A stretch of DNA of 64,000 nucleotides from Andreprevotia chitinilytica DSM 18519 (GTDB lineage Bacteria > Pseudomonadota > Gammaproteobacteria > Burkholderiales > Chitinibacteraceae). Location: positions 1 through 64,000 of the forward strand of contig NZ_JONM01000014.1 of the NCBI RefSeq assembly GCF_000711875.1, in the 5' to 3' direction. Positions 6,945-54,360 of this stretch are shown here, in pieces. Numbering within the stretch: position 1 is the stretch's first letter; every line of letters starts with the position of its first letter. The notes under the pieces were generated by a model that saw only the letters and a program-made list of their open reading frames with translations, was not told the origin of the DNA and did not search any database. Made by a program: the position numbers and the translations under genes.

Positions 6945-8423
6945 ATGCGTTTTCTGAAAATCAAATCAAAGCTTTTTCCCGCAACGGACTGCTATTCCGG
7001 TAAGCAGACAATCGCGCCGCACATTCCCCCTTCCGCGAAGGGGGGAATCAAACCCTCGCGTTTTCTTGCGCTTACTCTCGCGCTGGCCCTCGCCGGCTGT
7101 GGCAGCATGCTGAAAACCGATTACCAGCGCCCGGCGGTCACCATTCCGGCACACTGGCAAGGCCAGACCACCACCGGCAACACCGTGGCGATGACCGAGC
7201 ACTGGTGGACACGTTTTGACGACCCCACGCTGACCGCGCTGATCGACAAGGCATTGCGCAGCAACAACGACCTCGCTGCTGCCGCAATCAAAGTGCGCCG
7301 CGCCCGTCTGCAAGCCGGCTTGACCGACACCAACCTCACCCCGAGCGTGACGGTCAGTGGCAACGGCAGTGTCTCGAAAGACCTGAAAAATGGCGGTCCC
7401 AGCACCAAGACCTATAGCGCCACTGCCTCGCTCAGTTACGAGCTGGATTTGTGGGGACGGCTCGCCCGCCTGCGCGATGCTGCAGACTGGGAAGCACAAG
7501 CCACCGAGCTGGATCGCCAGAACACCGCCTTGGCGCTGATCGGCACCACTGCCCAGCTCTATTGGCAGATCGCCTATCTGAATCAACGGGTTGCCGCGAA
7601 CGAAGCGAGCCTCGTCTATGCGCAGCAAGCGCTGACGCTGACCCAAGTGAAGCACCGGGCCGGCGCAGTCGCCGGGTTGGATGAAGTGCAAGCCGAGCAA
7701 AGCGTCGCGACCCAACAAGCCAACCTCGCCACGCTGCAGCAACAGCGCGAAGAAGCCCGCAACGCCTTGGCCATCCTGTTCGACCAAGCCCCGCAAAACC
7801 GCGAAGCCGAGCGCGATCGCCTACCCGATAGCGCCCTGCCTGATGTACCAGCCGGCATCCCCGCTGACGTGCTCGGCCGTCGCCCCGATCTGCAAGCGGC
7901 CGAGTGGCGCTTGAAAGAAAGCCTCGCCAACGTTGATGCAACGCGCCTGGGCTTCTATCCGACCTTCTCGCTGACCGGCAGTGTTGGCAGTACCAGCGCC
8001 AGCCTTGCGAACGTGCTCTCCAACCCGCTGGGCACGCTGGGGGCTGGATTGGTGCTGCCCTTCGTGCAATGGAATACCACCCAGCTCACTATCAAGGTGT
8101 CGCAAAGCCAGTACGACGAAGCTGTCGTCAACTTCCGCCAGACGCTCTACAAGGCGCTGGCCGATGTCGAAAACACCTTGTCGGCGCGGATGTACTACCG
8201 CCAGCAAGGCGATGCGCTGCAACGCGCTTTTGACCTGTCCCGCCGCGCCGAGCAACTGGCCGAAGTGCGTTATCGGGCCGGGCAGACCGGAGTGAAAGAG
8301 TGGCTGGACCAGCAGGAATCCCGCCGCAGCGCCGAGAGTGCGCTGGCCGAGAATCACTACAACCAGCTCAATAATCTGATGAAGGTGTATCAGGCGTTGG
8401 GTGGGGATGTGGTAGGGCAGTAG
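6945..8423 (+). CDS. TolC/NodT-family outer-membrane efflux lipoprotein with repeat-containing leader
   Basis: Outer-membrane channel of the exporter operon, about 492 residues from ATG 6945; GTG 6933 is an alternative overlapping the macB stop. The lipobox LALAGC lies unusually late, near residue 50, after a 33-residue extension that includes the palindromic family B repeat at 7023-7048. The mature part has the two repeated OEP domains of NodT/CusC-like proteins (DYQRPAVTIPAHW, WWTRFDDPTLTALIDKAL, YELDLWGRLARLRDAAD, EWRLKESLANVDATRLGFYP). Normal family members begin only about 15-25 residues before the lipobox cysteine. No alternative ATG, GTG or TTG occurs in frame between the repeat and the lipobox. 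Confidence 0.9.
   Translation: MRFLKIKSKLFPATDCYSGKQTIAPHIPPSAKGGIKPSRFLALTLALALAGCGSMLKTDYQRPAVTIPAHWQGQTTTGNTVAMTEHWWTRFDDPTLTALIDKALRSNNDLAAAAIKVRRARLQAGLTDTNLTPSVTVSGNGSVSKDLKNGGPSTKTYSATASLSYELDLWGRLARLRDAADWEAQATELDRQNTALALIGTTAQLYWQIAYLNQRVAANEASLVYAQQALTLTQVKHRAGAVAGLDEVQAEQSVATQQANLATLQQQREEARNALAILFDQAPQNREAERDRLPDSALPDVPAGIPADVLGRRPDLQAAEWRLKESLANVDATRLGFYPTFSLTGSVGSTSASLANVLSNPLGTLGAGLVLPFVQWNTTQLTIKVSQSQYDEAVVNFRQTLYKALADVENTLSARMYYRQQGDALQRAFDLSRRAEQLAEVRYRAGQTGVKEWLDQQESRRSAESALAENHYNQLNNLMKVYQALGGDVVGQ
7023..7048. repeat. Family B palindrome inside the 5' end of the TolC-like gene
   Basis: A short hairpin unit (TTCCCCCTTCCGCGAAGGGG core) matches the intergenic family B repeats at 18929, 20837, 24162 and 26764. 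It lies within the open reading frame and is translated as PPSAKGG if ATG 6945 is used. Confidence 0.75.
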
Positions 8424-8506
8424 GTGCTGGCGTAACCAGGACTGGGGCTGCTTCTTTGGCCCAAAGGGGCGTTCGTCGCTACCAAGGCGCGCAAGCCTAG
8501 AATCCC

Positions 8507-8545
8507 CCCTCGCCCGCATGCGGGAGAGGGGCCGGGGGAGAGGGC
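8507..8545. repeat. Family C palindrome (single)
   Basis: Hairpin CCTCGCCCGCATGCGGGAGAGG plus a G-rich tail in the 169-bp gap between the convergent TolC-like and moeA genes. Related to 15014-15110, 17268-17297 and 41774-41887. Could act as a transcription stop or mRNA-stabilising hairpin for both genes. Confidence 0.75.
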
Positions 8546-8592
8546 ATCACCGCCGTGGCAATCTTGCCCCTTCTTCGGCGACACCCATCAAA

Positions 8593-9774
8593 TCAAATCG
8601 GAATGAACCGCACCAACTGACCCTTGGCAATCGGCGTATCAGCTGGGATCTCCACCAAACCATCCGCCTGTGCCAAGCCCGCAATCATCGCCGAGCCTTG
8701 CTGGCCGACAACGCCAACGCCATCCGGCCCGAGCGTGGCACGCAGGTATTCCTGACGAGCGTCCGGCTTGGGTTTGTCGAATGCGGCGGGCAAGGTGAAC
8801 GAGCGCGGTTGGACGTGTGCAGCACCCATCCGGGTTAACAGGTAAGGCCGCACCAATACCAGCAAAGTGACGAAGGCCGAGACCGGATTCCCCGGCAGCC
8901 CGACGAAATCCGCCGTGCCGATGCGCCCGAAAGCGAGTGGTTTGCCCGGCTTGATCGCCACCTTCCACAAATCGAGCGAACCAAGAGCCGATAGCGCGGC
9001 TTTCACGTGGTCTTCTTCGCCGACCGATACGCCACCGGTGCTGATGACTACGTCGCTCTTGGCCGCCGCCGCAGATAGCGCGGCTTCGGTGGCGGCGCGG
9101 TTGTCCGGCACCATGCCGCCGTCGGTCACGACGCAGCCGAGTTCGCGCAGCATGGCCAGCAGCATTGGCCGATTGCTGTTGTACACACCGCCTTCCGGCA
9201 GCGGCGTGCCCGGCTCGGTAAGTTCGTCGCCGGTCGAGAGCAAGGTCACGCGTAATGGTTTGAATACGTCGATGGCACCAATGCCGCCAGCGGCCAGCTT
9301 GGCAATCCGCGCCGCGTTGATTTGCTCGCCCGTCTGCACCAGTACCGCGTTGCGGGCGATGTCTTCGCCAGCGCGGCGGATATGTTGGCCGGGCTTCACC
9401 ACCACGCCATGCTTGATCCGTAATGTTTCGCCGTCCGCTTCCGTGTCTTCCTGCATCACCACCGCATTCGCGCCGGGCGGGATCGGTGCGCCGGTAAAGA
9501 TGCGCGCCGCTTCGTTCAGCTGCAGCGGCGTGCCGACGTGACCAGCGGCGATGCGTTGCACGATGGGGAAGGAGGTCGGCAGGAACAGATCGGGCGCGAA
9601 GGCGATCGCGTAGCCATCCATCGCGCTGTTATCCAGCGACGGCACATTGACGATGGCGCGGTATTCCGCTGCGGCGATCCGGCCCACCGCATCGGCCAGC
9701 GCGAGGGTTTCCGTCTCTGTTGGGGCTTTGGCGGCGGCGGAGAGGCGGTCGATGGCGTCTTGTACGCTTAGCAC
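8593..9774 (-). CDS. moeA: Molybdopterin molybdenumtransferase MoeA
   Basis: 393 residues; inserts molybdate into adenylated molybdopterin in the last shared step of molybdenum-cofactor synthesis. Recognised by the N-terminal [16 protein letters not shown], the [18 protein letters not shown] region, the MoCF-like domain with [15 protein letters not shown] and [17 protein letters not shown], and the C-terminal [13 protein letters not shown]. Length is usual for the family. Translation starts at GTG 9772-9774, overlapping the end of mobB by 7 bases, so the two are translationally coupled. It supplies cofactor to the nitrate reductase and FdhF-like enzyme encoded elsewhere in this window. Confidence 0.95.
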
Positions 9775-18323: not shown

Positions 18324-19004
18324 TTACTTCGTTGCAGCGAGCGCATTCAACGCTGCTGCATCGTTCAAATTCGAATTCAGATTAACAAAGGGATGATCGA
18401 AATGGACTTCGACCGCGCCGACGCTATCTTGCCAGCGCATTAATGCATGCTGCCCCTGATCCAGTGCGGTTTGCAATGCAGACAGCACCGTAGCGCGAAT
18501 CAGGCAGATCGCCGGCTGGCTGCGTTCGGCATTGGCGGCGCGGATGACTGGCGCTTGGCTACGTACTTCCCAAAGACGCGCTAGCAAATCGGTAGGCAGA
18601 TTGGGGACGTCGCAGGGCAGTACCAGCAGCCAATCGGCGCTGCTGGCGTACAAAGCGGCCTCGATGCCGGCTAACGGGCCGGGAAAGCCGAAACGCAGAT
18701 CGGGCAGCACTGGCAGCTGGCTGGCGGCGTAGAGCGCACCATTGCGATTGGCCGAGAGCCAGATCCGGCCGAAGTCCGCCTGGTTGATTTGCGCGAGCAC
18801 GTGCTGATACAGCGGCTGGCCGTTGAGCTGAACCAAGCCCTTGTCGATCCCGCCCATGCGCTGACCACGGCCGCCGCAGAGGATGACGGCGTCGCGGGTT
18901 TCGGGGGTGTCACCTGCTTGAGCACGCGTTCCCCCCTTCTCCGAAGGGGGGGGAGGGGGGATTTCGACGCCGCTGGAATTTGCAGCTGATTGTTGAAAAT
19001 CCAC
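18324..19004 (-). CDS. mobA: Molybdenum cofactor guanylyltransferase MobA, start obscured by repeats
   Basis: Transfers GMP to molybdopterin. The nucleotidyltransferase signature AVILCGGRGQRMGGIDKGLV and the later LPCDVPNLPTDLLARLW are clear. MobA proteins normally begin only a few residues before the ILCGG motif, but here no ATG, GTG or TTG occurs in frame there. The nearest in-frame candidate is GTG 19002-19004, which would translate the family B repeat as EIPPPPPSEKGGT and give 226 residues. ATG 19103 would include both repeats; anything longer runs into moaE. Either the repeat is translated as an N-terminal tail or an unusual start is used. Confidence 0.85.
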   Translation of the reverse strand: MDFQQSAANSSGVEIPPPPPSEKGGTRAQAGDTPETRDAVILCGGRGQRMGGIDKGLVQLNGQPLYQHVLAQINQADFGRIWLSANRNGALYAASQLPVLPDLRFGFPGPLAGIEAALYASSADWLLVLPCDVPNLPTDLLARLWEVRSQAPVIRAANAERSQPAICLIRATVLSALQTALDQGQHALMRWQDSVGAVEVHFDHPFVNLNSNLNDAAALNALAATK

Positions 19005-19096
19005 CGAGTGCGCTCTTTGGTTTTGCGCGACCAGCCGTGGCGATTGAACGCGTGCAGAAATCCCCCCTAGCCCCCCTTCGAGGAAGGGGGGAATAA
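18929..19096. repeat. Family B palindromic pair between moaE and mobA
   Basis: Unit 1 (TTCCCCCCTTCTCCGAAGGG, 18929 onward) and the inverted unit 2 (AATCCCCCCTAGCCCCCCTT, about 19058-19096) flank an 87-bp core. The pair overlaps the only reading frame that can serve as the mobA N-terminus. Confidence 0.85.
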
Positions 19097-20028: not shown

Positions 20029-20787
20029 TTAGGCGGCAAATGCCATCTGGATCGGGTCGACGTTCGTCGCCTCACCCATTGCTTCACCAATCGCATCGCC
20101 CACCAGAATGATGGCGGGGCTACCCAGACCCGCCGCTTGTGCCTTGGTCGCGAGTGCCCCCAGATTTGTGACAAGCCGGCGCTCTTTTTTTGTGCTGGCC
20201 CACTGTACGACTGCCGCGGGCGTCGATGCCGGGAGTGTTTGCATGAGCCCGTCAGTGAGCGATTCGATGCGGCTCATGCCCATGTAGATGACGAGCGTGG
20301 TGCCGGTGGCTGCCAATGCGTGCCAGTCCGGCTCGCTGTCGTCTTGCGCGTGGGCAGTCACAAACGTGACGCCACGGCAGTGCTCGCGATGGGTGAGCGA
20401 GATGCCGAGCGATGCCGCAGCGGCCAAACCCGAGGTGATGCCATTGACGATCTCGACCGTCACGCCGGCCGCTTCCAGATAAGCGATTTCTTCACCGGCA
20501 CGGCCGAATAGCAGCACTTCGCCGCCTTTTACGCGGACGACCACCTTGCCTTGCAGCGCATAGCGGCGCATCAGTTTCTGGATGAACGCTTGCGGCGTGG
20601 ATTTGCAACCGCCGCGCTTGCCGACCCGGATCACCGTGGCTTGTGGCGCAAGGGTGACGATCTCCGGATTGGCGAGTTCGTCCAGCAGCAGCACGTCGGC
20701 AGCGGCGAGTGCCTTGGCGGCCTTGAGGGTCAGCAGGTCCAGATCGCCGGGGCCGGCGCCGAGGAGGATGACTTTGCCTGGGTTCAT
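20029..20787 (-). CDS. cobA: Uroporphyrinogen-III C-methyltransferase (SUMT)
   Basis: 252-residue SAM-dependent enzyme that dimethylates uroporphyrinogen III to precorrin-2, the first step to siroheme, the prosthetic group of NirB. Signature regions are VILLGAGPGDLDLLTLKAAKAL (N-terminus), VRVGKRGGCKSTPQ (as IRVGKRGGCKSTPQ here), VVRVKGGEVLLFGRAGEE and GITSGLAAAASLGISLTHRE. It is a single-domain SUMT without the CysG oxidase/ferrochelatase part, so those steps must be encoded elsewhere. Co-oriented 170 bp after nasA, with a family B repeat in the spacer. Confidence 0.94.
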   Translation of the reverse strand: MNPGKVILLGAGPGDLDLLTLKAAKALAAADVLLLDELANPEIVTLAPQATVIRVGKRGGCKSTPQAFIQKLMRRYALQGKVVVRVKGGEVLLFGRAGEEIAYLEAAGVTVEIVNGITSGLAAAASLGISLTHREHCRGVTFVTAHAQDDSEPDWHALAATGTTLVIYMGMSRIESLTDGLMQTLPASTPAAVVQWASTKKERRLVTNLGALATKAQAAGLGSPAIILVGDAIGEAMGEATNVDPIQMAFAA

Positions 20788-20836: not shown

Positions 20837-20935
20837 TTCCCCCCTTTTTGAAGGGGGGCTAGGGGGGATTTCTGCGGCGTCTCAACTTGCTACGACGTCG
20901 AAATCCCCCTCGATCCCCCTTCTCAAAGGGGGAGG
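20837..20935. repeat. Family B palindromic pair between nasA and cobA
   Basis: Inverted units at about 20837-20872 and 20900-20935, with a conserved inner spacer (CTGCGGCGTCTCAACTTGC). The same arrangement occurs at 24162-24270 and 26764-26893. Confidence 0.88.
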
Positions 20936-20957: not shown

Positions 20958-23657
20958 CTACGTCGACGCAATCTGCGGCGTCGTCGCGCACAGCCGTTTC
21001 AGTTCCGGCACGCAGGATCCGCAAACACTGCCGCAACCAAGCGTGGCCTTGAGTTCGACCAGCGATGCGCCACGGGCAATGGCGTTGCGGATGCGGGACT
21101 CGGGCACTTGCACGCAGTTGCAGACGATCTTGTCGCGCGGGGCGCTGTTGGTGGACTTGGGGGCGAACACCGCGAGGCGCGAGCCTTGCCACGGTTGGGC
21201 GTCGAGCAGCGTACCGAGCAGCGCATCGCTGCCAGCAGCATCGCCCGCCAGCACGAAGCCATTGAGCACATCGCCTTGCCAGCCCACGCGCTTGAGCACG
21301 CCGCGCCGGGCATCGTGGAACTCCAGCACGTTCTCGCCGGGGTGTAGATCAAGGGCCGTGAACAGCCGCTCCAGCCAGCCAGCCGGGGCGGATTCGTGCG
21401 CGGCCTTGACCACCAGCAGGTCGTCCGCTGCCAGCGTGATCGCGGCGTAACTGCAGTCCTGCAGCAAGGGCTGGACGGCTGCTTGCAGCGCCTGCACATC
21501 GCCGCGCCGGGCCGCGGTCAGCCGCCACGGCAATTCGGCACGTTCCACGCGCACGGCAGCGTGCTTGAGTTCCGGCTGGAACGATTTGGGATCGGCTGCG
21601 CCAGTGGTGGCGGCGTTGATGCCGGTGCTGTTGAGAAACTGGCCGCTCCAGTGCATGGCGGCGAACACGCTGCCGGATTGCACGTCATCCGAGACGGCCA
21701 GCGGCAGCACCATGCCACCGCGCTTGCTCGCCACGCGCACCAGCTCGCCGGCCTTGAAGCCGCGCCGCTCGGCATCGCCCGGATGCATGGTCAAGGACGG
21801 TTCCGGCGTGTGCTGGAACAGGGAAGCGACACGGCCAGTGCGGGTCATGCCGTGCCATTGATCGCGCAGGCGGCCGGTGAGCAGGTGGAACGGATAGCGG
21901 GCGTTGGTTGCCTCGGCCAGTGGCTTGTACGGCGTGACGTGAAAACGGGCGCGGCCGTCGGCGGTGGCGAACACGCCATCTTCATAGCGGCGGGCTTGGC
22001 CAGTGGTTGCGCCAGCGGGCAGCGGCCATTGTTGCGGGCCGGCGGCATCCAGCATGGCGTAGTCGAGGCCGGTGATGTCCAGATCGCGGCCAGCGGTGAG
22101 GGCGCGGTGTTCGTTGAAGGCCGCTTCCGGCGTGGCGAAATCGAACAGGCTCGGGAAATCCGGTGCGAGATGCGCTTCGATGCGGCGAGCGATTTCGCCG
22201 ACGATCTCCCAATCCGGCAGCGCCTCGCCGGGGGCGGGGATGGCAGCGCGCACGCGGGAGATGCGGCGTTCGGAGTTGGTCACCGTGCCGGCTTTTTCGC
22301 CCCAGCTGGCGGCGGGCAGCAGCACATCGGCGTAGGCGGTGGTGTCGGTTTCGGCGAAGGCTTCTTGCACCACCACGAATTCGGCCTTGGCGAGCGCATC
22401 GGCCACGTTGCCGAGGTCCGGCATCGAGTGGGCCGGGTTGGTACAGGCGATCCAGACCGCCTTGATCTTGCCGTCGCGAATGGCGTCGAACATAGCGACG
22501 GCAGGCAGGCCGGGGCGGTCGGAGATGCGGTCGGCGTCGATGCCCCACAGTGCGGCGACTTCGGCGCGATGTTCGGCGTTACCGATGTCGCGGTGCGCGG
22601 CGAGCATGGTCGCCATGCCGCCGACTTCGCGGCCGCCCATGGCATTCGGCTGGCCGGTGAGCGAGAACGGGCCCGCGCCCGGTTTGCCGATCTGGCGGGT
22701 GGCCAGATGCAGGTTGATCAGCGCCAGATTCTTGTCGGTGCCGTGGGCGGATTGATTGAGGCCCATGCAGTACAGCGACAGGCTGGCCGGGCTGCGGCCG
22801 AACCATTCGGCGGCGGTGATCAGGTCGGCTTCGAGGATGCCGCACAGCTCGGCGGCCATCTTCGGTGTGAAATCGCGCACCAGCTTTTTCAGTTCGGCAA
22901 AGCCTTCGGTATGTGCGGCCACATAGTCGGTATCGACCAGGCCTTCCCAGATCAGGTGATGCAGCATGCCGTTGAACAGCGCGACATCGGTGCCGGGCTG
23001 GATTTGCAGGTGCAAGTCGGCCGTGGCGGCGGTATCGGTGCGGCGCGGGTCGATCACGATCCATTTCACGTCCGGGCGCTCGGCCTTGGCGGCTTCCAAG
23101 CGGCGGAACAGCACCGGGTGGGCGTAGGCGGCATTGCTGCCGGCGAACAGGACGCAGTCGGTCAGTTCCAGGTCTTCGTAACAGGTGGGCGGGCCATCCG
23201 CGCCGAGCGCGAGCTTGTAGCCGACCACCGCGCTCGACATGCACAGGCGCGAGTTGGTATCGATGTTGTTGGTGCCGATCAAGCCCTTGGCGAGCTTGTT
23301 GAACACGTAGTAGTCCTCGGTCAGCAACTGGCCGGAGACATAGAAAGCGACCGCATCAGGGCCGTAGCGCTCGATGATGTCGGCAAAGCGTTCGGCCACG
23401 GTATCGAAGGCAGTCGGCCAATCGACTTGCTGGCGCGGCTCGTCACGGGTGAGGCGCATGGTGGGATAGAGCGCACGGCCGGCGTCGCTGGCGACCGTCT
23501 TCGCCAAGCTCATGCCTTTGGTGCACAGCCGGCCGAAATTGGCCGGGTGATCCGGATCGCCCTGTACGCCGGTGATGCGGCCGGCTTCGGATTCGATGAG
23601 CACGCCGCAACCGACGCCGCAGTAGCAGCAAGTGGATTTGGTGATGGTTTTGGTCAT
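20958..23657 (-). CDS. nasA: Assimilatory nitrate reductase catalytic subunit with C-terminal [2Fe-2S] domain
   Basis: 899 residues from ATG 23655-23657 (MTKTITKSTCCYCGVGCGV). Cytoplasmic bis-MGD molybdenum enzyme reducing nitrate to nitrite. The N-terminal [4Fe-4S] ligands are C-x2-C-x3-C plus a later Cys (GRLCTKG). The Mo-cysteine region is TNSRLCMSSAVVGYKLALG. The core molybdopterin and dinucleotide-binding domains run to about residue 700. The C-terminus carries a BFD-like [2Fe-2S] domain with IVCNCVQVPESRIRNAIARG and GCGSVCGSCVPEL, as in Klebsiella NasA-type enzymes. Fourth gene of the operon; needs the Moco genes downstream. Confidence 0.95.
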   Translation of the reverse strand: MTKTITKSTCCYCGVGCGVLIESEAGRITGVQGDPDHPANFGRLCTKGMSLAKTVASDAGRALYPTMRLTRDEPRQQVDWPTAFDTVAERFADIIERYGPDAVAFYVSGQLLTEDYYVFNKLAKGLIGTNNIDTNSRLCMSSAVVGYKLALGADGPPTCYEDLELTDCVLFAGSNAAYAHPVLFRRLEAAKAERPDVKWIVIDPRRTDTAATADLHLQIQPGTDVALFNGMLHHLIWEGLVDTDYVAAHTEGFAELKKLVRDFTPKMAAELCGILEADLITAAEWFGRSPASLSLYCMGLNQSAHGTDKNLALINLHLATRQIGKPGAGPFSLTGQPNAMGGREVGGMATMLAAHRDIGNAEHRAEVAALWGIDADRISDRPGLPAVAMFDAIRDGKIKAVWIACTNPAHSMPDLGNVADALAKAEFVVVQEAFAETDTTAYADVLLPAASWGEKAGTVTNSERRISRVRAAIPAPGEALPDWEIVGEIARRIEAHLAPDFPSLFDFATPEAAFNEHRALTAGRDLDITGLDYAMLDAAGPQQWPLPAGATTGQARRYEDGVFATADGRARFHVTPYKPLAEATNARYPFHLLTGRLRDQWHGMTRTGRVASLFQHTPEPSLTMHPGDAERRGFKAGELVRVASKRGGMVLPLAVSDDVQSGSVFAAMHWSGQFLNSTGINAATTGAADPKSFQPELKHAAVRVERAELPWRLTAARRGDVQALQAAVQPLLQDCSYAAITLAADDLLVVKAAHESAPAGWLERLFTALDLHPGENVLEFHDARRGVLKRVGWQGDVLNGFVLAGDAAGSDALLGTLLDAQPWQGSRLAVFAPKSTNSAPRDKIVCNCVQVPESRIRNAIARGASLVELKATLGCGSVCGSCVPELKRLCATTPQIAST

Positions 23658-23704
23658 GGCGAATCCTGTTGAAGAGAGCAAAACCGTTGGCTTGCGTGGG
23701 TTGC

Positions 23705-24161: not shown

Positions 24162-24270
24162 GTTCCCCCCTTTTTGAAGGGGGGCTAGGGGGGATTTCAG
24201 CGGCATCTCACGTTGACGCGGCGTCGAAATCCCCCGGCCTTTGGCCCGCCCCCTTCAAAAAGGGGGCTAG
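24162..24270. repeat. Family B palindromic pair between nirB and nirD
   Basis: Left unit TTCCCCCCTTTTTGAAGGGG from about 24163, right unit (CGCCCCCTTCAAAAAGGGGG) to about 24270, with a GACGTCGAAATCCCCC-like inner part (here GGCGTCGAAATCCCCC). Confidence 0.88.
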
Positions 24271-24296: not shown

Positions 24297-26729
24297 TTAC
24301 GCGACCACCTTGATCGGGATGTACTCATTCTTCTGCGCCCCGGCGATGCGGGCAGCCCATGGGTCGGGCAAGCCTTCCAGCGAGTACAGCAAGCGTTCGA
24401 ACAAGGTACGGCGGTTGGCGGCGTCCTCAACCACCTTGGCCTTGATGTAATCCAGACCCACGCGCTCGATGTAATGCACGGTGCGGTCGAGGTAATAGGC
24501 TTCTTCGCGATACAGCTGCAGGAAGGCGCCGCTGTATTCCTTCACTTCCTCGGCGGTCTTCACCTTGCACAGGAACTGCGCGACTTCGGTCTTGATGCCG
24601 CCGTTGCCGCCCACGTAAAGCTCCCAACCGCTATCGACCGCGATCACGCCCACGTCCTTGATGCCGGCTTCGGCGCAGTTGCGCGGGCAGCCGGAGACGG
24701 CGAGCTTCACCTTGTGCGGCGACCACATATTGGCCAGCATCGTTTCCAGATCGATGCCCATCTGCGTGCTGTTCTGGGTGCCGAAGCGGCAGAACTCGCT
24801 GCCCACGCAGGTTTTCACCGTGCGGATGGATTTGCCGTAGGCGTGGCCGGATTGCATGCCGAGGTCTTGCCACACGTTGACCAGGTCTTCCTTCTTCACG
24901 CCCAGCAAGTCGATGCGCTGGCCGCCGGTCACTTTCACCATCGGCACTTGATACTTGTCGGCCACATCGGCGATGCGGCGCAGTTCGGACGAATTGGTCA
25001 CGCCGCCCTTCATCTGTGGAATGACCGAGAACGTGCCGTCCTTCTGGATATTGGCGTGCACGCGCTCGTTGACGAAACGGCTTTGCGGATCGTCCTTGGC
25101 TTCATGCGGCCAGGTGGAGAGCAAGTAGTAGTTCACCGCCGGCCGGCAGGTGGCGCAGCCGTTCGGCGTGCGCCATTCCAGGAAGTCGTAGACCTCCTTG
25201 TGCGTCAGCAGATGGTTCTCGCGGATCGCCTTGCGCACGTTGGCGTGCGTGTGGTCGGTACAGCCGCAGACCGCCTTGGTCTTGGGCGTTTCCTGAAAGC
25301 TGGAGCCCAGGCAATTCATCAGGATTTGCTCGACCAGACCGGTGCATGAGCCACAGGAGCTGGCGGCCTTGGTTTGCTTCTTCACGTCATCGACGGTGAA
25401 CAGGCCCTTGTCCTTGATCGCCTTGACGATGGTGCCCTTGCACACGCCGTTGCAGCCGCACACTTCGTCGCTGTCCTGCATGGCGGCAGCGCGGCTTTGG
25501 CCGCCCACGCCGGAGTCACCGATGGCCGATTCGCCGAACATGATGTGTTCGCGCAGATCGTTGATCTTGCGGCCCTCGCGCAGCAGCTTGAAGTACCACG
25601 CGCCGTCGGTGGTGTCGCCGTAGAGGCAGGCGCCGACCAGTTGGTCGTCCTTGATCACCAGCTTCTTGTACACGCCGCCGGCCGGGTCGGAGAGCACGAT
25701 GTCTTCGGTGCCGTCGCTACCCATGAAATCGCCGGCGCTAAACAGATCGATGCCGGTGACCTTGAGCTTGGTGGACAGCACCGAGCCCTTGTATTGGCCG
25801 ATGCCGTGCTGCGCCAGATGGTTGGCGCAGACCTTGGCTTGTTCGAACAGCGGGGCGACGAGGCCATAAGCCACGCCGCGATGGTTCACGCACTCGCCCA
25901 CGGCGTAGATGCGCGGGTCGAATGTTTGCAGCGTATCGCTCACCTTGATGCCGCGATCGCAATGCAGGCCGGCCGATTCGGCCAGCGAGGAATTCGGGCG
26001 GATGCCGACGGCCATCACGACCAGATCGGCCGGGACTTCGTCGCCATCCTTGAAACGCACCGAGGTCACTTCGCCCAGATCGTTGCCGACGATTTCAGCG
26101 GTTTGCTTGGGCATCAGGAAGGTCAGGCCGCGATCTTCCAGCGACTTGCGCAGCAGCGCGCCGGCGGTGTCGTCCAGCTGGCGATCCAGCAGCCAGTCGC
26201 CCAGATGCACCACGCTGACTGCCATGCCGCGCAGCTTCAGGCCGTTGGCCGCTTCCAGACCCAACAGGCCGCCGCCGATGACGACCGCGTGCTTCTTGAC
26301 CTTGGCGGTTTCGATCATCGTTTCGGTGTCGTAGATGTCGCGATAGGTGATCACACCCTTCAGATCCTTGCCCGGCACCGGCAGGATGAACGGGGTGGAG
26401 CCAGTGGCGAGCAGCAGGCGGTCGTACTGCACCTCGGTGCCGTCGTCCGCCACGACCAGCCGGCGCATGCGGTCGATGCGGGTGATGGTCTTGCTGGTGT
26501 GCAGGGTGATGTTGTTCTCGGCATACCAATCGAGCGAGTTGAGGATGATGTCCTCGAACGCTTGCTCGCCCGCCAGCACCGGCGAGAGCAGGATGCGGTT
26601 GTAGTTGGGATGCGGCTCGCTGCCGAAGACCGTGATGTCGTAGCGATCCGGCGCGATGGTCAGCAGCTCTTCGATGGTGCGGATGCCGGCCATGCCGTTG
26701 CCGACGACGACGAGTTTCGGTTTGTTCAT
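24297..26729 (-). CDS. nirB: Assimilatory nitrite reductase [NAD(P)H] large subunit NirB
   Basis: 810 residues from ATG 26727-26729 (MNKPKLVVVGNGMAGIRTIE). Reduces nitrite to ammonium using siroheme, [4Fe-4S], FAD and NAD(P)H. Domains in order: FAD/NAD oxidoreductase (residues about 1-400), BFD-like [2Fe-2S] region (CGCNGVCKG ... SCGSCTGLVE, about 420-480), and a second Cys-rich helical region (CGCTDHTH, GCATCRPAVNYY). Nitrite/sulphite reductase ferredoxin-like halves follow, with siroheme/cluster ligands TCVGSEFCRFG and SGCPRNCAEAG. All ligands are intact. It sits between the transporter and nirD. Confidence 0.96.
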   Translation of the reverse strand: MNKPKLVVVGNGMAGIRTIEELLTIAPDRYDITVFGSEPHPNYNRILLSPVLAGEQAFEDIILNSLDWYAENNITLHTSKTITRIDRMRRLVVADDGTEVQYDRLLLATGSTPFILPVPGKDLKGVITYRDIYDTETMIETAKVKKHAVVIGGGLLGLEAANGLKLRGMAVSVVHLGDWLLDRQLDDTAGALLRKSLEDRGLTFLMPKQTAEIVGNDLGEVTSVRFKDGDEVPADLVVMAVGIRPNSSLAESAGLHCDRGIKVSDTLQTFDPRIYAVGECVNHRGVAYGLVAPLFEQAKVCANHLAQHGIGQYKGSVLSTKLKVTGIDLFSAGDFMGSDGTEDIVLSDPAGGVYKKLVIKDDQLVGACLYGDTTDGAWYFKLLREGRKINDLREHIMFGESAIGDSGVGGQSRAAAMQDSDEVCGCNGVCKGTIVKAIKDKGLFTVDDVKKQTKAASSCGSCTGLVEQILMNCLGSSFQETPKTKAVCGCTDHTHANVRKAIRENHLLTHKEVYDFLEWRTPNGCATCRPAVNYYLLSTWPHEAKDDPQSRFVNERVHANIQKDGTFSVIPQMKGGVTNSSELRRIADVADKYQVPMVKVTGGQRIDLLGVKKEDLVNVWQDLGMQSGHAYGKSIRTVKTCVGSEFCRFGTQNSTQMGIDLETMLANMWSPHKVKLAVSGCPRNCAEAGIKDVGVIAVDSGWELYVGGNGGIKTEVAQFLCKVKTAEEVKEYSGAFLQLYREEAYYLDRTVHYIERVGLDYIKAKVVEDAANRRTLFERLLYSLEGLPDPWAARIAGAQKNEYIPIKVVA

Positions 26730-26763
26730 GGTGAGTCGTTCCTTCAAAAACGTACTTAACTTG

Positions 26764-26893
26764 TTCCCCCCTTCCATGAAGGGGGGCTAGGGGGGATTTC
26801 TGCGGCATCTCAACTTGCAATGACGTCGAAATCCCCCTCAATCCCCCTTTGCCGTGCGAATTTATTAATTCGTTCAGGCATGAAAGGGGGAGG
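26764..26893. repeat. Family B palindromic pair between narK and nirB
   Basis: Left unit from 26764 and right unit to 26893. The right unit carries a 27-base insertion (TGCCGTGCGAATTTATTAAT region) within its hairpin loop, compared with the other copies. Confidence 0.82.
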
Positions 26894-26902
26894 TTAAAAC
26901 CC

Positions 26903-28105
26903 TTAAACCCGCGCTGCCGCTACGGTCCAGCTGCTGCGCCAGCGTTGCTTCACGGTGGTCAGGCTGACCCAACCCAGTGCTGCCAGGCAGGCGAACAACC
27001 ACAGGCCGGTGGCGTAATCGCCGGTGGCTTGCTTGATCGAGGCCAGGCTGGCTGCCAGTGCGAAACCACCCACGCCGCCGGCCATGCCGATCAGGCCGGT
27101 CATCACGCCGATTTCGCTGCGGAAGCGTTGCGGCACCAGTTGGAACACCGCGCCGTTACCCGCGCCGAGGCAGAGCATGGCGGCGATGAACAGGCACAGT
27201 TGCACGGCAGCGCCGCCCGGGTTGAAGCCGGCCAGACCGATCAACACCGCCACGGATGCATACACTGCCAGCAGCGACTTGGTGCCACCGATCTTGTCGG
27301 CCAGCACGCCGCCGACCGGGCGCATCACCGAACCGGCCATCACGCAAGCCGCAGTGGCCCAGCCAGCCATCTTCGGCTCGAAGGCGAACTGGTCATGGAA
27401 GTAACCGGGCAGGGCGCTGGCGAAGCCGGAGAAACCGCCGAAAGTCAGCGCATAGAAGAACATGAACCACCAAGCATCACGATTCGCCAGCACTTGGGCG
27501 TAGTCGGTCCAGGTCTTTTGCTTGAAGTCGCCCGGTGCATCTTTGGCGAGCTTCCAGTACACCGCCAGCACGATCACCAGCGGGATGGTGGCCAGGGCGA
27601 ACACGTTCTGCCAGCCAAAGGCAATTGCCAGCACCGGGGCGAACAGGGCGGCCAACACGGTGCCGGAGTTACCCGCACCAGCAATGCCCATCGCCGTACC
27701 TTGGTGCTCCGGCGGATACCAGCGCGATGCCAGCGGCAGGGCCACGGCGAACGATGCGCCCGCCACGCCGAGGAACACGCCCAGCAGCAGCGCTTCGTGC
27801 AGGTTGTGCACGCCCAGCTTCCAGGCGGCCAGCAGCGCACAGATCACGATGACCTGACCCAACAGGCCAGCGCGCTTGGCGCCGATGCGGTCAGCCAGCA
27901 TGCCCATGAACAAGCGCAGGATCGCGCCGGCCAGAATCGGTGTAGCGACCATCAGGCCACGTTGTTGCGTGGAGAGCTCCAGCGCTTTGGCGATCTGCAC
28001 CTGCAAGGGGCCGAGCAGATACCAGACCATGAAGCTCAGGTCGAAATACAGAAACGCGGAAAACAGCGTGGGCGTATGGCCGGCTCGCCAGAAGGAACGG
28101 TTCAT
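26903..28105 (-). CDS. MFS nitrate/nitrite transporter (NarK/NasA type)
   Basis: 400-residue inner-membrane transporter with about 12 helices. The nitrate-porter signature regions are present: FMVWYLLGPLQVQIAKALEL, GAGNSGTVLAALFAPVLA and GMAGGVGGFALAASLASIKQ, with PHP-free short loops. The conserved arginines typically binding nitrate are in LAGAILRLFMGMLADRIG and GSVMRPVGGVLADKIGG. Length matches the NarK1-like/NasA proton-coupled importers. Start ATG 28103-28105 with GAGGAGAG upstream. It is the first gene of the assimilation operon, directly after the attenuator leader. Confidence 0.93.
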   Translation of the reverse strand: MNRSFWRAGHTPTLFSAFLYFDLSFMVWYLLGPLQVQIAKALELSTQQRGLMVATPILAGAILRLFMGMLADRIGAKRAGLLGQVIVICALLAAWKLGVHNLHEALLLGVFLGVAGASFAVALPLASRWYPPEHQGTAMGIAGAGNSGTVLAALFAPVLAIAFGWQNVFALATIPLVIVLAVYWKLAKDAPGDFKQKTWTDYAQVLANRDAWWFMFFYALTFGGFSGFASALPGYFHDQFAFEPKMAGWATAACVMAGSVMRPVGGVLADKIGGTKSLLAVYASVAVLIGLAGFNPGGAAVQLCLFIAAMLCLGAGNGAVFQLVPQRFRSEIGVMTGLIGMAGGVGGFALAASLASIKQATGDYATGLWLFACLAALGWVSLTTVKQRWRSSWTVAAARV

Positions 28106-28152: not shown

Positions 28153-28197
28153 AAAAAAAAGGCGTCCGCTCGCAACCCGAAGGTTGGAGGGGACGCC
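28153..28197 (-). terminator. Leader terminator (attenuator) before the nitrate operon
   Basis: On the minus strand GGCGTCC ... GGACGCC forms a 7-bp outer stem with an inner CAACC-TTCG-GGTTG hairpin, followed at once by eight Ts. It ends about 48 bases upstream of the narK start, inside the transcribed leader. It therefore must be read through for expression: the layout of an antitermination switch. Confidence 0.88.
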
Positions 28198-28272
28198 GTT
28201 GTCCTTGTGTTTGGGAATCCAATCCCGCCGACGCGGGAGTCGGAGCGCGCCGGGGGAAGGATTACCCGCGTC

Positions 28273-28294
28273 ACCCTGCCTGCGTTGGCAGGGT
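28273..28294 (-). promoter_or_regulatory. Hexaloop hairpin, candidate ANTAR (NasR/NasT) binding element
   Basis: In the leader RNA the 8-bp stem ACCCTGCC/GGCAGGGT closes a six-base loop AACGCA, with A at loop position 1 and G at position 4. This is the defining pattern of RNA hairpins bound by ANTAR antiterminators. A second hexaloop candidate at 28228-28243 (stem CCGAC/GTCGG, loop TCCCGC) lacks the A1/G4 pattern, so only the first hairpin fits well. Confidence 0.65.
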
Positions 28295-28341
28295 TAACGG
28301 TTCGGTGACCAGCACGCCTTTGTGCCAGTCAGGGGATATGT

Positions 28342-28357
28342 AGCAATGGTCGTGCCA
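28342..28357 (-). promoter_or_regulatory. Sigma-54 promoter of the nitrate-assimilation operon
   Basis: Minus strand TGGCACGACCATTGCT matches the consensus TGGCACR-N4-TTGCW at every fixed position. Transcription would start near 28332, about 225 bases upstream of narK and about 40 bases before the hexaloop hairpin. Confidence 0.9.
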
Positions 28358-28434
28358 GCGGCTCAGCGGGCGGTAAAAAGACCGGGAAGTGGCGGATTTG
28401 CTGGATTTATGGGGTTTGCCCCATTTTCTTTTGC

Positions 28435-28451
28435 TGCACTGCAACGGTGCA
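28435..28451. promoter_or_regulatory. NtrC (NRI) binding site upstream of the sigma-54 promoter
   Basis: TGCACTGCAACGGTGCA fits the NtrC dyad TGCACY-N5-GGTGCA. It is centred about 111 bp upstream of the predicted start. A left half-site TGCACT recurs at 28466-28471, 31 bp (three helical turns) away, reminiscent of paired enhancer sites at glnA. Confidence 0.78.
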
Positions 28452-28523
28452 CCAGGCCGAGGCGTTGCACTGTTCCGACGCGTTTGTAGGGGTTTGACCT
28501 TATCGGTTGATCGGCGGGGAAAA

Positions 28524-28706
28524 CGTAGCCCGGACAGCGTTGTCGGCGGTGCCGCTTATGAACAAGTTCCGGCCGGGGTTGGCGCATGTGAAGAGGAGTC
28601 TGGGTCAGAGGAGTGATTCGTATAGTGCCCCCGGCCGGCAAGCCGTCCGGGCTACGTGTGGCGCTGGCTTGAGACGTAGCCCGGACGCATTTTGCGGCCG
28701 GGGTTG
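28524..28706. repeat. Family D elements (three units)
   Basis: GTAGCCCGGAC-type units begin near 28524 and 28675, and an inverted unit (CGGCCGGCAAGCCGTCCGGG) lies near 28630-28655. They occupy the region between the nitrate-operon enhancer and the adhesin gene. The remaining 28707-28908 stretch probably holds the adhesin promoter. Confidence 0.78.
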
Positions 28707-28908
28707 CTTCGGTACGCACGGCCGCATCGGTTTGCGCCAAATCAAATCCATGCACACTTTGAGAATCGTCTCATGTGCCCGGAGGTGTTGTTTCTCTACC
28801 TTATGCAGATGCTTTTTAGAAATGAGGAAAGGTTTATTTCCTTGTTCGAAAAGAGGCAAATCTGCTGTCCGCAATGCGGGCGGCTCGTCTTCTCGATGGG
28901 GTAGTGCA

Positions 28909-31900
28909 ATGACCAAGGCGATTCGTTTGAAATTATGCAAAGCAGCGGGCAAGTCATGTGCCGAGCTGGCGTCGATGAGGTACCGAGGCAAGGCGAACAG
29001 GCTGACCTTGATCGCCGGATTGCTGTTGAGCGGGCTGGGCGTATCAGCCGAATCGCGCGCAGCCTATTACTTTGCCGATGGCAATGACAGCACCTGCGCC
29101 AAGATCGTCGATACCGCCAGCGCGTTTACATCCAATACCCAGGATGACAACTGCACCAAACAAGCCGGCACCAACCCCGGCGGCAATATCGTTTTCTATT
29201 CCAAGACCGGCGTGAAGGGCACGGCGGGCGGGGGCGACTCGATCAACGTCGGTGGCGATCTGACCGTGTGGGGCAATACCAGCCTCAAATCCATCCTCGA
29301 CATGAACGGCCACAAGATCACCGGCGTGAGCGCTGGCACGCTATCGGCTATCAGCACCGATGCCGTCAACGGCGCGCAGTTGTTCACCACCAACACCAAT
29401 GTGCAAAACAACGCCACCGCGCTCACCGCACTCAACAGTGCCGTCGTGGCCGGGCAGAAATATGTGAAGGCCAACGGGTCAACCGGCAAGGATCTGGCGG
29501 ATGCGGCCGCGACCGACCCCGGTGCGATCGCCATCGGCAACGGTGCCTATGCCGGGCAGCCGGACAAGGTACAGGCGTATTCCCAGACGGCCATCGGTGC
29601 GGGCGCGCGGGCCGAGCAACACATGACGGTGGCGCTGGGCGCGTATGCCTGGGCGCGCGCGGATATGTCTGTTGCAATTGGGCAGCAGGCGCATGCAAAT
29701 GCGGATGAATCCGTGGCGCTGGGCAGTGCATCGTGGACTTCACGTGGCGCGGTGACCAAGCTGTTGGACCCGCTCTCTTATTCCAAAGCCACGGTGACGA
29801 CATGGGTGGGGGAGGTATCGGTCGGGGACGATACCAATGCCGACCTGAAACGCCAGATCACTAACGTTGCAGCCGGCACCCAAGCCACCGATGCCGCCAA
29901 TGTCGGCCAGGTGCTGGGCGTGAAAAGCGTGGTCGATACCAACGCCATCCGCACGGCAGCGGCCTTGGGCGGCGGTGCGAAAGTCGGCACGGACGGCGCG
30001 ATGACTGCGCCGGCCTACACCGTTGGCGGGATCAGCCACAACAATGTCGGCAGCGCCTTGAGCGATCTGGATGGCCTCACGGCGAACAACAAGATCGCCA
30101 TTACCAATCTCAATACCGGGCTGGCCGGACTGGTGCAGCAAGATTCCGCCAGCAAGAACATCACGATTGCCCGTGCCACTGGCGGCGACAGCATCAACGT
30201 CGCCGGCACGGATGGTGTGCGGACAATCTCCGGCGTGAAGGATGCCCGGTTGTCGGACGACAGCACCGATGCCGTCACCGGCAAGCAGCTGCATGCTGCC
30301 AACGCGATGCTTGCTGCAACCAGCACGATCGTTGCCGGCAATGCGGCTGTAATCGCTGCAGCGTTGGGTGGTGGCTCGACGGTAGGAGCGGGTGGCGTGA
30401 TCACCGCACCGACCTACCAGTTTGGTGATCAGACCTTCAATAGCGTCGGCGGCGCACTCACCAATCTGGATGGCCGCACCGCCGCCAACACCAGCGCCAT
30501 TACCAATTTCAGCAACGGCAGCATCGGCTTGGTGCAGCAAAACGCCGATACCAAAGCCATCACGATTGCCAGTGCCACCGGGGGTGACCACATCAACGTC
30601 ACCGGCACGGATGGTGTGCGGACAATCTCCGGCGTGAAGGATGCCCGGTTATCGGACGACAGCACCGATGCCGTCACCGGCAAGCAGCTGCATGCCACCA
30701 ACAGTAACGTGGCGGATAACGCAGTCGCGATTACCAATCTATCCACCCAACTCAATAACGGCTCGGTCGGCTTGGTGCAGCAGGATGCCGCCACCGGCAA
30801 TCTCTCCGTCGCCAAAGACACAGCCGGTACGCAGGTGAGCTTTGCCGGCAAAAACCAGGACGGCATAGCCATCGCCCGCAAGCTGACCGATCTGGCCGAT
30901 GCCGATCTGACCGAGACCAGCAGCGACGCGGTAACGGGCAAGCAGCTGCACGCGACCAATGGCCGGGTCGGCGTGTTGGAGGCCAGCACGGTGCAATACG
31001 ACGACGCCAGCAAAGCCAGCATCACCCTCAACAAGGGCGGTCAGGCGGTGCAGATCAGGAACGTGGCGGATGGCACTGACGATGCCGATGCGGTGAATGT
31101 GCGCCAGCTCAAGAGCGCGGGCGTGATCAATGCCGATGGCTCGGCAGGAGCGGTCGTCACCTATACCGACGCATCTCGCGGCTCGGTCGTGTTGGGCGGT
31201 GGTATGGCCGGCACGCTGATCACCAATGTGCGGGATGGCGTCATCGGGGCCGGCAGCCGCGATGCGGTGAACGGCGGCCAGATCGCCGCGCTGCGTGATT
31301 CGCTGCAGTCTTCGATCAGTGGGCTGGACGGTCGCGTCTCGACGCTGGAGCAAAACGGCGGCGGTGGCAGTTCGCAAGGGGGTTCCAAGTTCAACGGCAG
31401 TGGCAGTGGCGCGGCCGATGAACAGCAAGAGCAAGCCACCGCGACCGGGACCAATGCCACCGCCGCCGGGGCCAATGCGACTGCTTCCGGCAACAGCACA
31501 ACGGCGCTTGGTGCCAATTCCATCGCCAGTGCGGATAACTCAGCAGCCATCGGTGCCAATTCGGTGGCGGATCGGGCCAATACCGTCTCGGTCGGCTCAG
31601 CGGGCAACGAACGCGCCATAGCCAACGTCGCAGCCGGTACTGCCGCTACGGACGCGGTCAACGTCGGGCAGCTCAACGCGGTCAGCAGGCGCGTCGATCA
31701 GGTGCAAGCCGACCTGAACAGTCTGCGCGACGACGTGTACCAACGCCTGAGCGATCAGGAACGCAAGCTGGACAAACTTGGCGCGATGAACGCCGCCATG
31801 TCCACCATGACCGCCAGTGCCGCCGGTCTGCGCACCGATAACCGTGTAGCCATCGGCACCGGTTACATGAACGGGCAAAGCGCCATTGCCTTCGGCTACC

Positions 31901-31995
31901 AGCGCCGTGTGACTGATGCCACCACCGTGACCATTGGCGGTTCGACCTCGGGCAGCGAATACAACGTGGGCGTAGGCGTGGGGATTGGTTGGTAG
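28909..31995 (+). CDS. Trimeric autotransporter adhesin (YadA-like)
   Basis: 1028 residues from ATG 28909; the frame is open upstream to 28507 but that part reads through repeats. An extended N-terminus and signal peptide (ANRLTLIAGLLLSGLGVSAE) precede a passenger domain. Head-type repeats follow (AIGNGAYAG, TAIGAGARAE, SVAIGQQAHANADESVALG), with several neck motifs (DAVNGAQL, DAVTGKQLH, DAANVGQV, DAVNVRQL), coiled-coil stalk and a Gly/Ser linker (NGGGGSSQGGSKFNGSGSG). A second set of head repeats precedes the final YadA anchor (SIGTGYMNGQ-like VAIGTGYMNGQSAIAFGYQRR ending GVGIGW). It trimerises in the outer membrane and should mediate adhesion, plausibly to chitin or other surfaces. Stand-alone gene with a strong terminator after it. 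Confidence 0.93.
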   Translation: MTKAIRLKLCKAAGKSCAELASMRYRGKANRLTLIAGLLLSGLGVSAESRAAYYFADGNDSTCAKIVDTASAFTSNTQDDNCTKQAGTNPGGNIVFYSKTGVKGTAGGGDSINVGGDLTVWGNTSLKSILDMNGHKITGVSAGTLSAISTDAVNGAQLFTTNTNVQNNATALTALNSAVVAGQKYVKANGSTGKDLADAAATDPGAIAIGNGAYAGQPDKVQAYSQTAIGAGARAEQHMTVALGAYAWARADMSVAIGQQAHANADESVALGSASWTSRGAVTKLLDPLSYSKATVTTWVGEVSVGDDTNADLKRQITNVAAGTQATDAANVGQVLGVKSVVDTNAIRTAAALGGGAKVGTDGAMTAPAYTVGGISHNNVGSALSDLDGLTANNKIAITNLNTGLAGLVQQDSASKNITIARATGGDSINVAGTDGVRTISGVKDARLSDDSTDAVTGKQLHAANAMLAATSTIVAGNAAVIAAALGGGSTVGAGGVITAPTYQFGDQTFNSVGGALTNLDGRTAANTSAITNFSNGSIGLVQQNADTKAITIASATGGDHINVTGTDGVRTISGVKDARLSDDSTDAVTGKQLHATNSNVADNAVAITNLSTQLNNGSVGLVQQDAATGNLSVAKDTAGTQVSFAGKNQDGIAIARKLTDLADADLTETSSDAVTGKQLHATNGRVGVLEASTVQYDDASKASITLNKGGQAVQIRNVADGTDDADAVNVRQLKSAGVINADGSAGAVVTYTDASRGSVVLGGGMAGTLITNVRDGVIGAGSRDAVNGGQIAALRDSLQSSISGLDGRVSTLEQNGGGGSSQGGSKFNGSGSGAADEQQEQATATGTNATAAGANATASGNSTTALGANSIASADNSAAIGANSVADRANTVSVGSAGNERAIANVAAGTAATDAVNVGQLNAVSRRVDQVQADLNSLRDDVYQRLSDQERKLDKLGAMNAAMSTMTASAAGLRTDNRVAIGTGYMNGQSAIAFGYQRRVTDATTVTIGGSTSGSEYNVGVGVGIGW
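30181..30702 (+). repeat. Internal direct repeat of the adhesin stalk
   Basis: About 123 bases beginning at 30181 recur at 30580 (offset 399 bp, 133 codons) with few differences. They encode GTDGVRTISGVKDARLSDDS plus TDAVTGKQLHA. The near identity at DNA level marks a recent module duplication or conversion, and the tract can recombine. Confidence 0.85.
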
Positions 31996-54072: not shown

Positions 54073-54360
54073 GGGAGCCCCCTACATTTGCGGGTTTTTA
54101 CCCGCCGCTTCGCTGCTAAACGAAGGTGGCGGGCGCAAGGACGGGTTAGCAGACCGGAATGTAGGAACCGGCGCACCCGAAGGTGCCCCATCCTTGCTCC
54201 GCCATTGAAGGCGCACCAAGGGTGTTGCGGACGTAATAAAACCGCTTTGCAGCGGTTTGTCCGCCTACATATCCAGGCTGCTAAACCTGATCACGCCGTG
54301 AGGCGTGACAAAGCGAAGTATCCCCAACCCTCACCGGAGCGGTCAAGAACGTCAGCTTCC
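54073..54360. other. Hairpin-rich gene-free stretch
   Basis: Several short palindromes lie close together: CGGGTTTTTACCCG near 54090, AAACCGCTTTGCAGCGGTTT at 54238-54257 and TCACGCCGTGAGGCGTGA near 54293. There is no credible ORF. With the family D pair that follows, the whole gap 54073-54612 is non-coding. Confidence 0.5.

Follow-up and report, generated by a model that had tools for sequence, protein, structure and literature searches.

A nitrate-assimilation operon of Andreprevotia chitinilytica with a predicted NtrC/sigma-54 promoter and a probable NasS/NasT-type leader carrying three hexaloop hairpins

The window analysed here, a 64,000-nt stretch of the Andreprevotia chitinilytica DSM 18519 genome (G000), carries a nitrate-assimilation operon on its minus strand.

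26903..28105, minus strand: narK, nitrate/nitrite MFS transporter (Pfam MFS_1), ATG at 28105
24297..26777, minus strand: nirB, nitrite reductase large subunit (TIGR02374, 951 bits, above cut-off)
20958..23681, minus strand: assimilatory nitrate reductase of the NasA type with a C-terminal BFD domain (Pfam)
20029..20787, minus strand: uroporphyrinogen-III C-methyltransferase, siroheme (TIGR01469, 262.7 bits, above cut-off)

The best NCBIfam match of narK was the NarK family, at 279 bits slightly below the cut-off of 311.7, and the nitrate reductase scored under the cut-offs of the NCBIfam NasA/NasC models. Several gaps of the operon hold a palindromic intergenic repeat rich in G/C runs (AAATCCCCCCTAGCCCCCCTT and a facing copy), with five copies present (18944-18964, 19058-19078, 20851-20871, 24177-24197 and 26779-26799) and none expected. 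Elsewhere in the window, a C4 antisense RNA of the phage-immunity type (RF01695, 72.7 bits; 54122-54209, minus strand) suggests a prophage or its remnant in that part.

An initial annotation of the window had placed a sigma-54 element, an NtrC dyad and a second half-site ahead of narK, and all three were recovered from the sequence where it had put them.

28471-28466, minus strand: additional NtrC half-site AGTGCA
28451-28435, minus strand: NtrC-type dyad TGCACCGTTGCAGTGCA, centred at about -112
28357-28342, minus strand: sigma-54 -24/-12 element TGGCACGACCATTGCT, also found in relatives

The sigma-54 element occurs once within the 64,000-nt window, and its position predicts a transcription start (+1) near 28331. 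The dyad agrees with TGCACC-N5-GGTGCA at 11 of 12 positions, a score equalled in none of 200 shuffles, and most relatives have NtrC sites scoring 9-12 of 12 upstream of the sigma-54 element. Together with rpoN and ntrC (696 bits), both present in the genome, the -24/-12 element and upstream dyad make up a candidate NtrC-activated sigma-54 promoter. Divergent from the nitrate operon lies a trimeric autotransporter adhesin with YadA stalk and anchor (28507-31995, plus strand), whose long open reading frame overlaps sequence that lies upstream of the NtrC site.

Between the predicted start and narK, the leader RNA would contain four hairpins and a terminator.

28331-28306, minus strand: P0, 10-bp hairpin TGACTGGCAC[AAAGGC]GTGCTGGTCA, hexaloop with A1 and G4, C:G closed
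28294-28273, minus strand: P1, 8-bp hairpin ACCCTGCC[AACGCA]GGCAGGGT, hexaloop with A1 and G4
28267-28213, minus strand: inserted hairpin between P1 and P2, loop CTCCGACTCC, tip GCGCGCTCCGACTCCCGCG at 28250-28232
28204-28191, minus strand: P2, antiterminator hairpin GGAC[AACGGC]GTCC, A1 and G4, C:G closing pair
28197-28153, minus strand: intrinsic terminator ending in eight Ts, 48 nt upstream of the narK start codon (folding z -5.7)

P1 with its hexaloop AACGCA (folding z -4.2) and the terminator with its eight Ts stand as initially annotated. That annotation had also made its reading depend on covariation of the 28273-28294 hairpin, and P1 does covary across species, with a re-paired stem in the sister species (G001). 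It had found that the second expected hexaloop does not fit; a fitting one is present in P2, at the 5' arm of the terminator, and in most relatives the same P2 likewise stands before a terminator. The second hairpin originally considered, CCGAC[TCCCGC]GTCGG, is absent from the sister species and was rejected.

The terminator stem GGCGTCC/GGACGCC has positions 28197-28191 in common with P2, so the two structures are mutually exclusive, and when the leader is folded alone the terminator is favoured over the P2 form by 8.9 kcal/mol. A1/G4 hexaloops on P1 and P2 (here joined by P0) and a P2 that excludes the terminator are marks of an ANTAR target. As a search pattern P2 alone is unspecific, with many matches that lack a terminator. 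The 155-nt leader was shuffled 20,000 times with its dinucleotides kept. Four shuffles contained an A1/G4 hexaloop hairpin, C:G closed, with a stem of at least 10 bp, and in no shuffle did three C:G-closed A1/G4 hexaloops occur together on stems of at least 4 bp; both features are present in the real leader. When other leaders were used to build a covariance model, the narK leader ranked second genome-wide (43.1 bits, E 2e-8 for the whole genome) and so is no chance pattern.

The initial reading was also open to the absence of an ANTAR gene from the genome; the search returned a single ANTAR protein scoring above the cut-off, a NasT followed by a NasS on another contig.

L112 6787-7359, minus strand: nasT, 190-aa REC+ANTAR protein
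L112 5588-6784, minus strand: nasS, 398-aa NMT1-like (NrtA/NasS-type) protein, 2 nt after nasT

A REC+ANTAR protein encoded beside an NrtA-like protein is the gene pair of a NasS/NasT system, and the sole ANTAR protein of the genome is not the NIT-ANTAR protein of a Klebsiella-type NasR system. The nasT gene, too, is preceded by a sigma-54-like element (CGGCACGCAATTTGCT) and by an NtrC-like site. In the sister species, nasT and nasS lie directly upstream of the leader and narK, and in G002, of the same genus, narK and nasT are both missing. Residues R140, E158 and Y162 of NasT are the counterparts of EutV R142, E160 and Y164, which read loop base G4 (PMC8934654). It had been suggested initially that the RNA-binding partner or the hairpin rule may differ; with P2 present and the G4-reading residues kept, neither is needed, and the departure from the textbook is in the layout (P0 and the inserted hairpin), not in the loop rule. 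The EutV RNA-contact residues N173, R175 and R177 are not kept in NasT, which counts against the explanation we favour. Another trimeric autotransporter adhesin adjoins nasST (L112 7902-11150).

P0, which the initial annotation had overlooked, begins at about the predicted +1. Of the 34 narK leaders from outside Pseudomonas in which a sigma-54 element could be recognised, 29 carry an A1/G4 hexaloop hairpin locked to the promoter, with a stem of 4 bp or more and a loop lying 35-38 nt from the element's first base; the lineages that have it include Neisseriales relatives, Burkholderiaceae, Herbaspirillum and Xanthomonadaceae. Across 26 distinct P0 sequences, standard pairs fill 85.8% of pair cells compared with 61.9% after shuffling, double-change cells number 59 compared with 22, and in nine of the ten pairs both partners vary; the signal is lost when the partner is moved one, two or three columns along. 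Since A1 and G4 had been required in the search, the independent evidence lies in the position, the stem covariation, and A2 and the C:G closing pair, both invariant in the 26 sequences. Judged from these alignments, P0 is probably a NasT site and perhaps the first loading point.

Two alternatives bear on P0. Messenger RNAs can be stabilised by 5' stem-loops, and P0, which starts at +1 and keeps a constant place, might protect the mRNA or aid promoter escape with an A1/G4 loop that is incidental. We regard this as unlikely: a stem serving for protection would put no demand on the loop sequence, whereas neither A2 nor the closing pair ever varies; the P0 loop resembles those of P1 and P2; and in Pseudomonas the hairpin at the P0 position is the P1 of a P1-P2 pair. 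Alternatively, P0 and P1 may form a dual-hairpin site of their own that occupies one NasT dimer as anchor or sink, a second NasT holding P2 and the insert serving as a spacer. The 11-nt P0-P1 linker would suit such a site, being within the 5-12 nt of natural eut linkers (PMC3369931), as would a P0-P1 loop distance of 35-36 in both Andreprevotia leaders and several relatives, and the oligomeric state of NasT freed from NasS (PMC3795266); that a normal P1-P2 pair stands beside P0 in other genera, and that P0 occurs in some relatives where a good P1 is lacking, makes the arrangement rather improbable. In the reading that we prefer, P0 would be the first hairpin to load NasT and P1 the usual recruitment hairpin.

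The narK leaders of Paraburkholderia (L003, L005, L007 and L009) have a P0-like hairpin and, far downstream, a 7-8-bp hexaloop hairpin, by eye lack a terminator of the usual form, and possibly use a different read-out.

The loops of P1 and P2 are 86 nt apart here and 83 nt apart in the sister species, compared with 21-28 nt in 40 other distinct leaders (range searched, 21-29). The gap folds as a single hairpin of 55-56 nt in both species (z -4.0 in A. chitinilytica and -2.3 in the sister species), a comparison of two sequences of GC-rich RNA, which folds easily. The tip GCGCGCTCCGACTCCCGCG is identical at 19 of 19 positions, although identity is about 56% in the remaining leader up to P2. The P1-P2 linker is 68 nt in sequence, of which about 9-13 nt would be unpaired if the predicted insert hairpin forms; with the predicted insert folded, about seven bases are unpaired in the sister species. 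By taking up the gap, the inserted hairpin may keep the effective linker at about 7-13 nt; with two sequences compared, this is a lead, not proof, and for the roles of both P0 and the insert we see about an even chance. Actinobacterial P1-P2 linkers span 2-25 nt (PMC8164766). With EutV, antitermination is lost once the linker is 20 nt longer (PMC8934654), so the 86-nt distance counts against the favoured explanation. A spacing so far beyond the range of the 40 other leaders might instead mean that the switch has decayed in the genus, the insert having broken the P1-P2 spacing and left narK under NtrC alone with a leaky terminator, yet this is very unlikely given that P0, P1 and P2 obey the rule in both species despite the low identity outside the tip, that the gap folds in both, and that nasST is retained with narK and missing where narK is missing.

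Other origins of the insert were discarded. As a dispersed repeat it has a single genomic occurrence, with 3-mismatch matches not above the reversed control, and a vestigial P1 inside it, GGG[ATTGGA]TTC, has a G:U closing pair and is not conserved.

The NtrC/sigma-54 promoter with ANTAR antitermination first proposed for this operon is the best reading of the promoter elements, P1, P2, the terminator, NasT-NasS, ntrC and rpoN, and we consider it highly probable, from the sequence features assembled here, that such a promoter and a NasS/NasT antitermination leader together control the operon. An NtrC-activated sigma-54 promoter would start the leader RNA, which by default would stop ahead of narK, at the intrinsic terminator. 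In the presence of nitrate or nitrite, NasS would let go of NasT, and the freed NasT would bind the A1/G4 hexaloops and stabilise P2; P2 would occupy the 5' arm of the terminator, allowing RNA polymerase to read through into the operon. Nitrogen shortage and nitrate would thus both be needed. NasT binding to the loops, nitrate sensing by NasS and the roles of the additional hairpins are inferred. This explanation draws on the P2/terminator overlap, a single NasT with NasS, the G4-reading residues, and the presence of ntrC and rpoN; on nasT-nasS adjoining the leader in the sister species and missing with narK in G002; and on the covariance-model match, a promoter-fixed and covarying P0, covariation of P1 and an insert hairpin in both species.

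Nitrate-responsive antitermination by NasS/NasT also occurs in Azotobacter and Pseudomonas. In Paracoccus denitrificans, NasT binds the nas leader and nitrate induces its release from NasS (PMC3795266). That system (PMC3795266, PMC5424462) likewise has a REC+ANTAR NasT with NasS, a terminator in the leader of nitrate-assimilation genes, and P1 and P2 with A1/G4 loops, whereas here a third hexaloop hairpin sits at +1, a 55-nt hairpin separates P1 from P2, and nasST is on another contig. The Klebsiella nasF leader with NasR (PMC7496416, PMC3369936) is alike in its nitrate-responsive P1-P2 antitermination of a nas operon, and differs in using a one-component NIT-ANTAR protein and two loops where NasS/NasT and three loops are found here. 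Enterococcus eut leaders with EutV (PMC3369931, PMC8934654) share C:G-closed A1/G4 hexaloops, a P2 that excludes the terminator, and the G4-reading residues in common with NasT; they differ in their phosphorylation-driven sensor, two loops, and 5-12-nt linker with no inserted hairpin. The mechanism is already known; the three-hexaloop layout with a folded insert appears to be new. In the open-access literature we found no description of three A1/G4 loops in a nas leader, nor of NasT control of an EAL gene, and on that literature the novelty of both is provisional. ANTAR antitermination has been described as a two-hairpin, one-dimer, fixed-linker mechanism, and leaders with a promoter-locked third hairpin and a folded insert are natural tests of that model: they could show which of the loops does the loading, and whether linker length or distance in space is what counts.

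In Pseudomonas, the Rfam families RF03032 (narK RNA) and RF00625 (P11) span the sigma-54 element and the NasT-type leaders of narK and nirB. The narK leader studied here belongs to neither, scoring 18.2 bits for RF03032 (cut-off 43.2) and 15.7 bits for RF00625 (cut-off 70), and an Rfam search of 18 related loci returned none over threshold. RF00625 coincides with the sigma-54 promoter, ANTAR-type leader and terminator of nirB (L011, L014, L033, L056, L064, L075 and L078, around 7970-8720); judged by sequence, the Pseudomonas sRNA P11 looks like the terminated nirB leader, and P11 RNA has a small hairpin before P2.

The best covariance-model match in the genome (58.9 bits, at C10:107320) is the sole other NasT-type leader.

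L119 1422-2827 (contig C10:107320-108670): second NasT-type leader and EAL-domain gene

This leader has a sigma-54 element, P1, P2 and a terminator directly before a gene for an EAL-type c-di-GMP phosphodiesterase, in which the usual catalytic motifs EALLR, DDFG and EGVE are kept (by eye). A homologous EAL gene is preceded by the same type of leader in three other genomes (G019, G027 and, from another family, G101), each of which also encodes NasT; 28 of 32 scanned EAL-gene loci lack a NasT-type leader. In a Burkholderia species, c-di-GMP falls in response to nitrate, by a route not yet identified in that study (PMC5524735). The EAL phosphodiesterase leader would offer a testable direct path from nitrate sensing to c-di-GMP.

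We tentatively propose a joint reading, possible though short of probable, in which many nitrate leaders of beta- and gammaproteobacteria work as three-loop NasT switches, the insert of this genus may read a second signal, and NasT controls the EAL gene. A hexaloop hairpin locked to the sigma-54 start would load NasT before P1 and P2 emerge, and in this genus a hairpin with a conserved tip would substitute for the linker. If so, the same NasT would tie nitrate to c-di-GMP. In G019, narK, nirB and an nrtA-like gene each have a NasT-type leader of their own in front of them (contig C36, L231), so that, the EAL gene's leader included, its regulon comprises at least four leaders.
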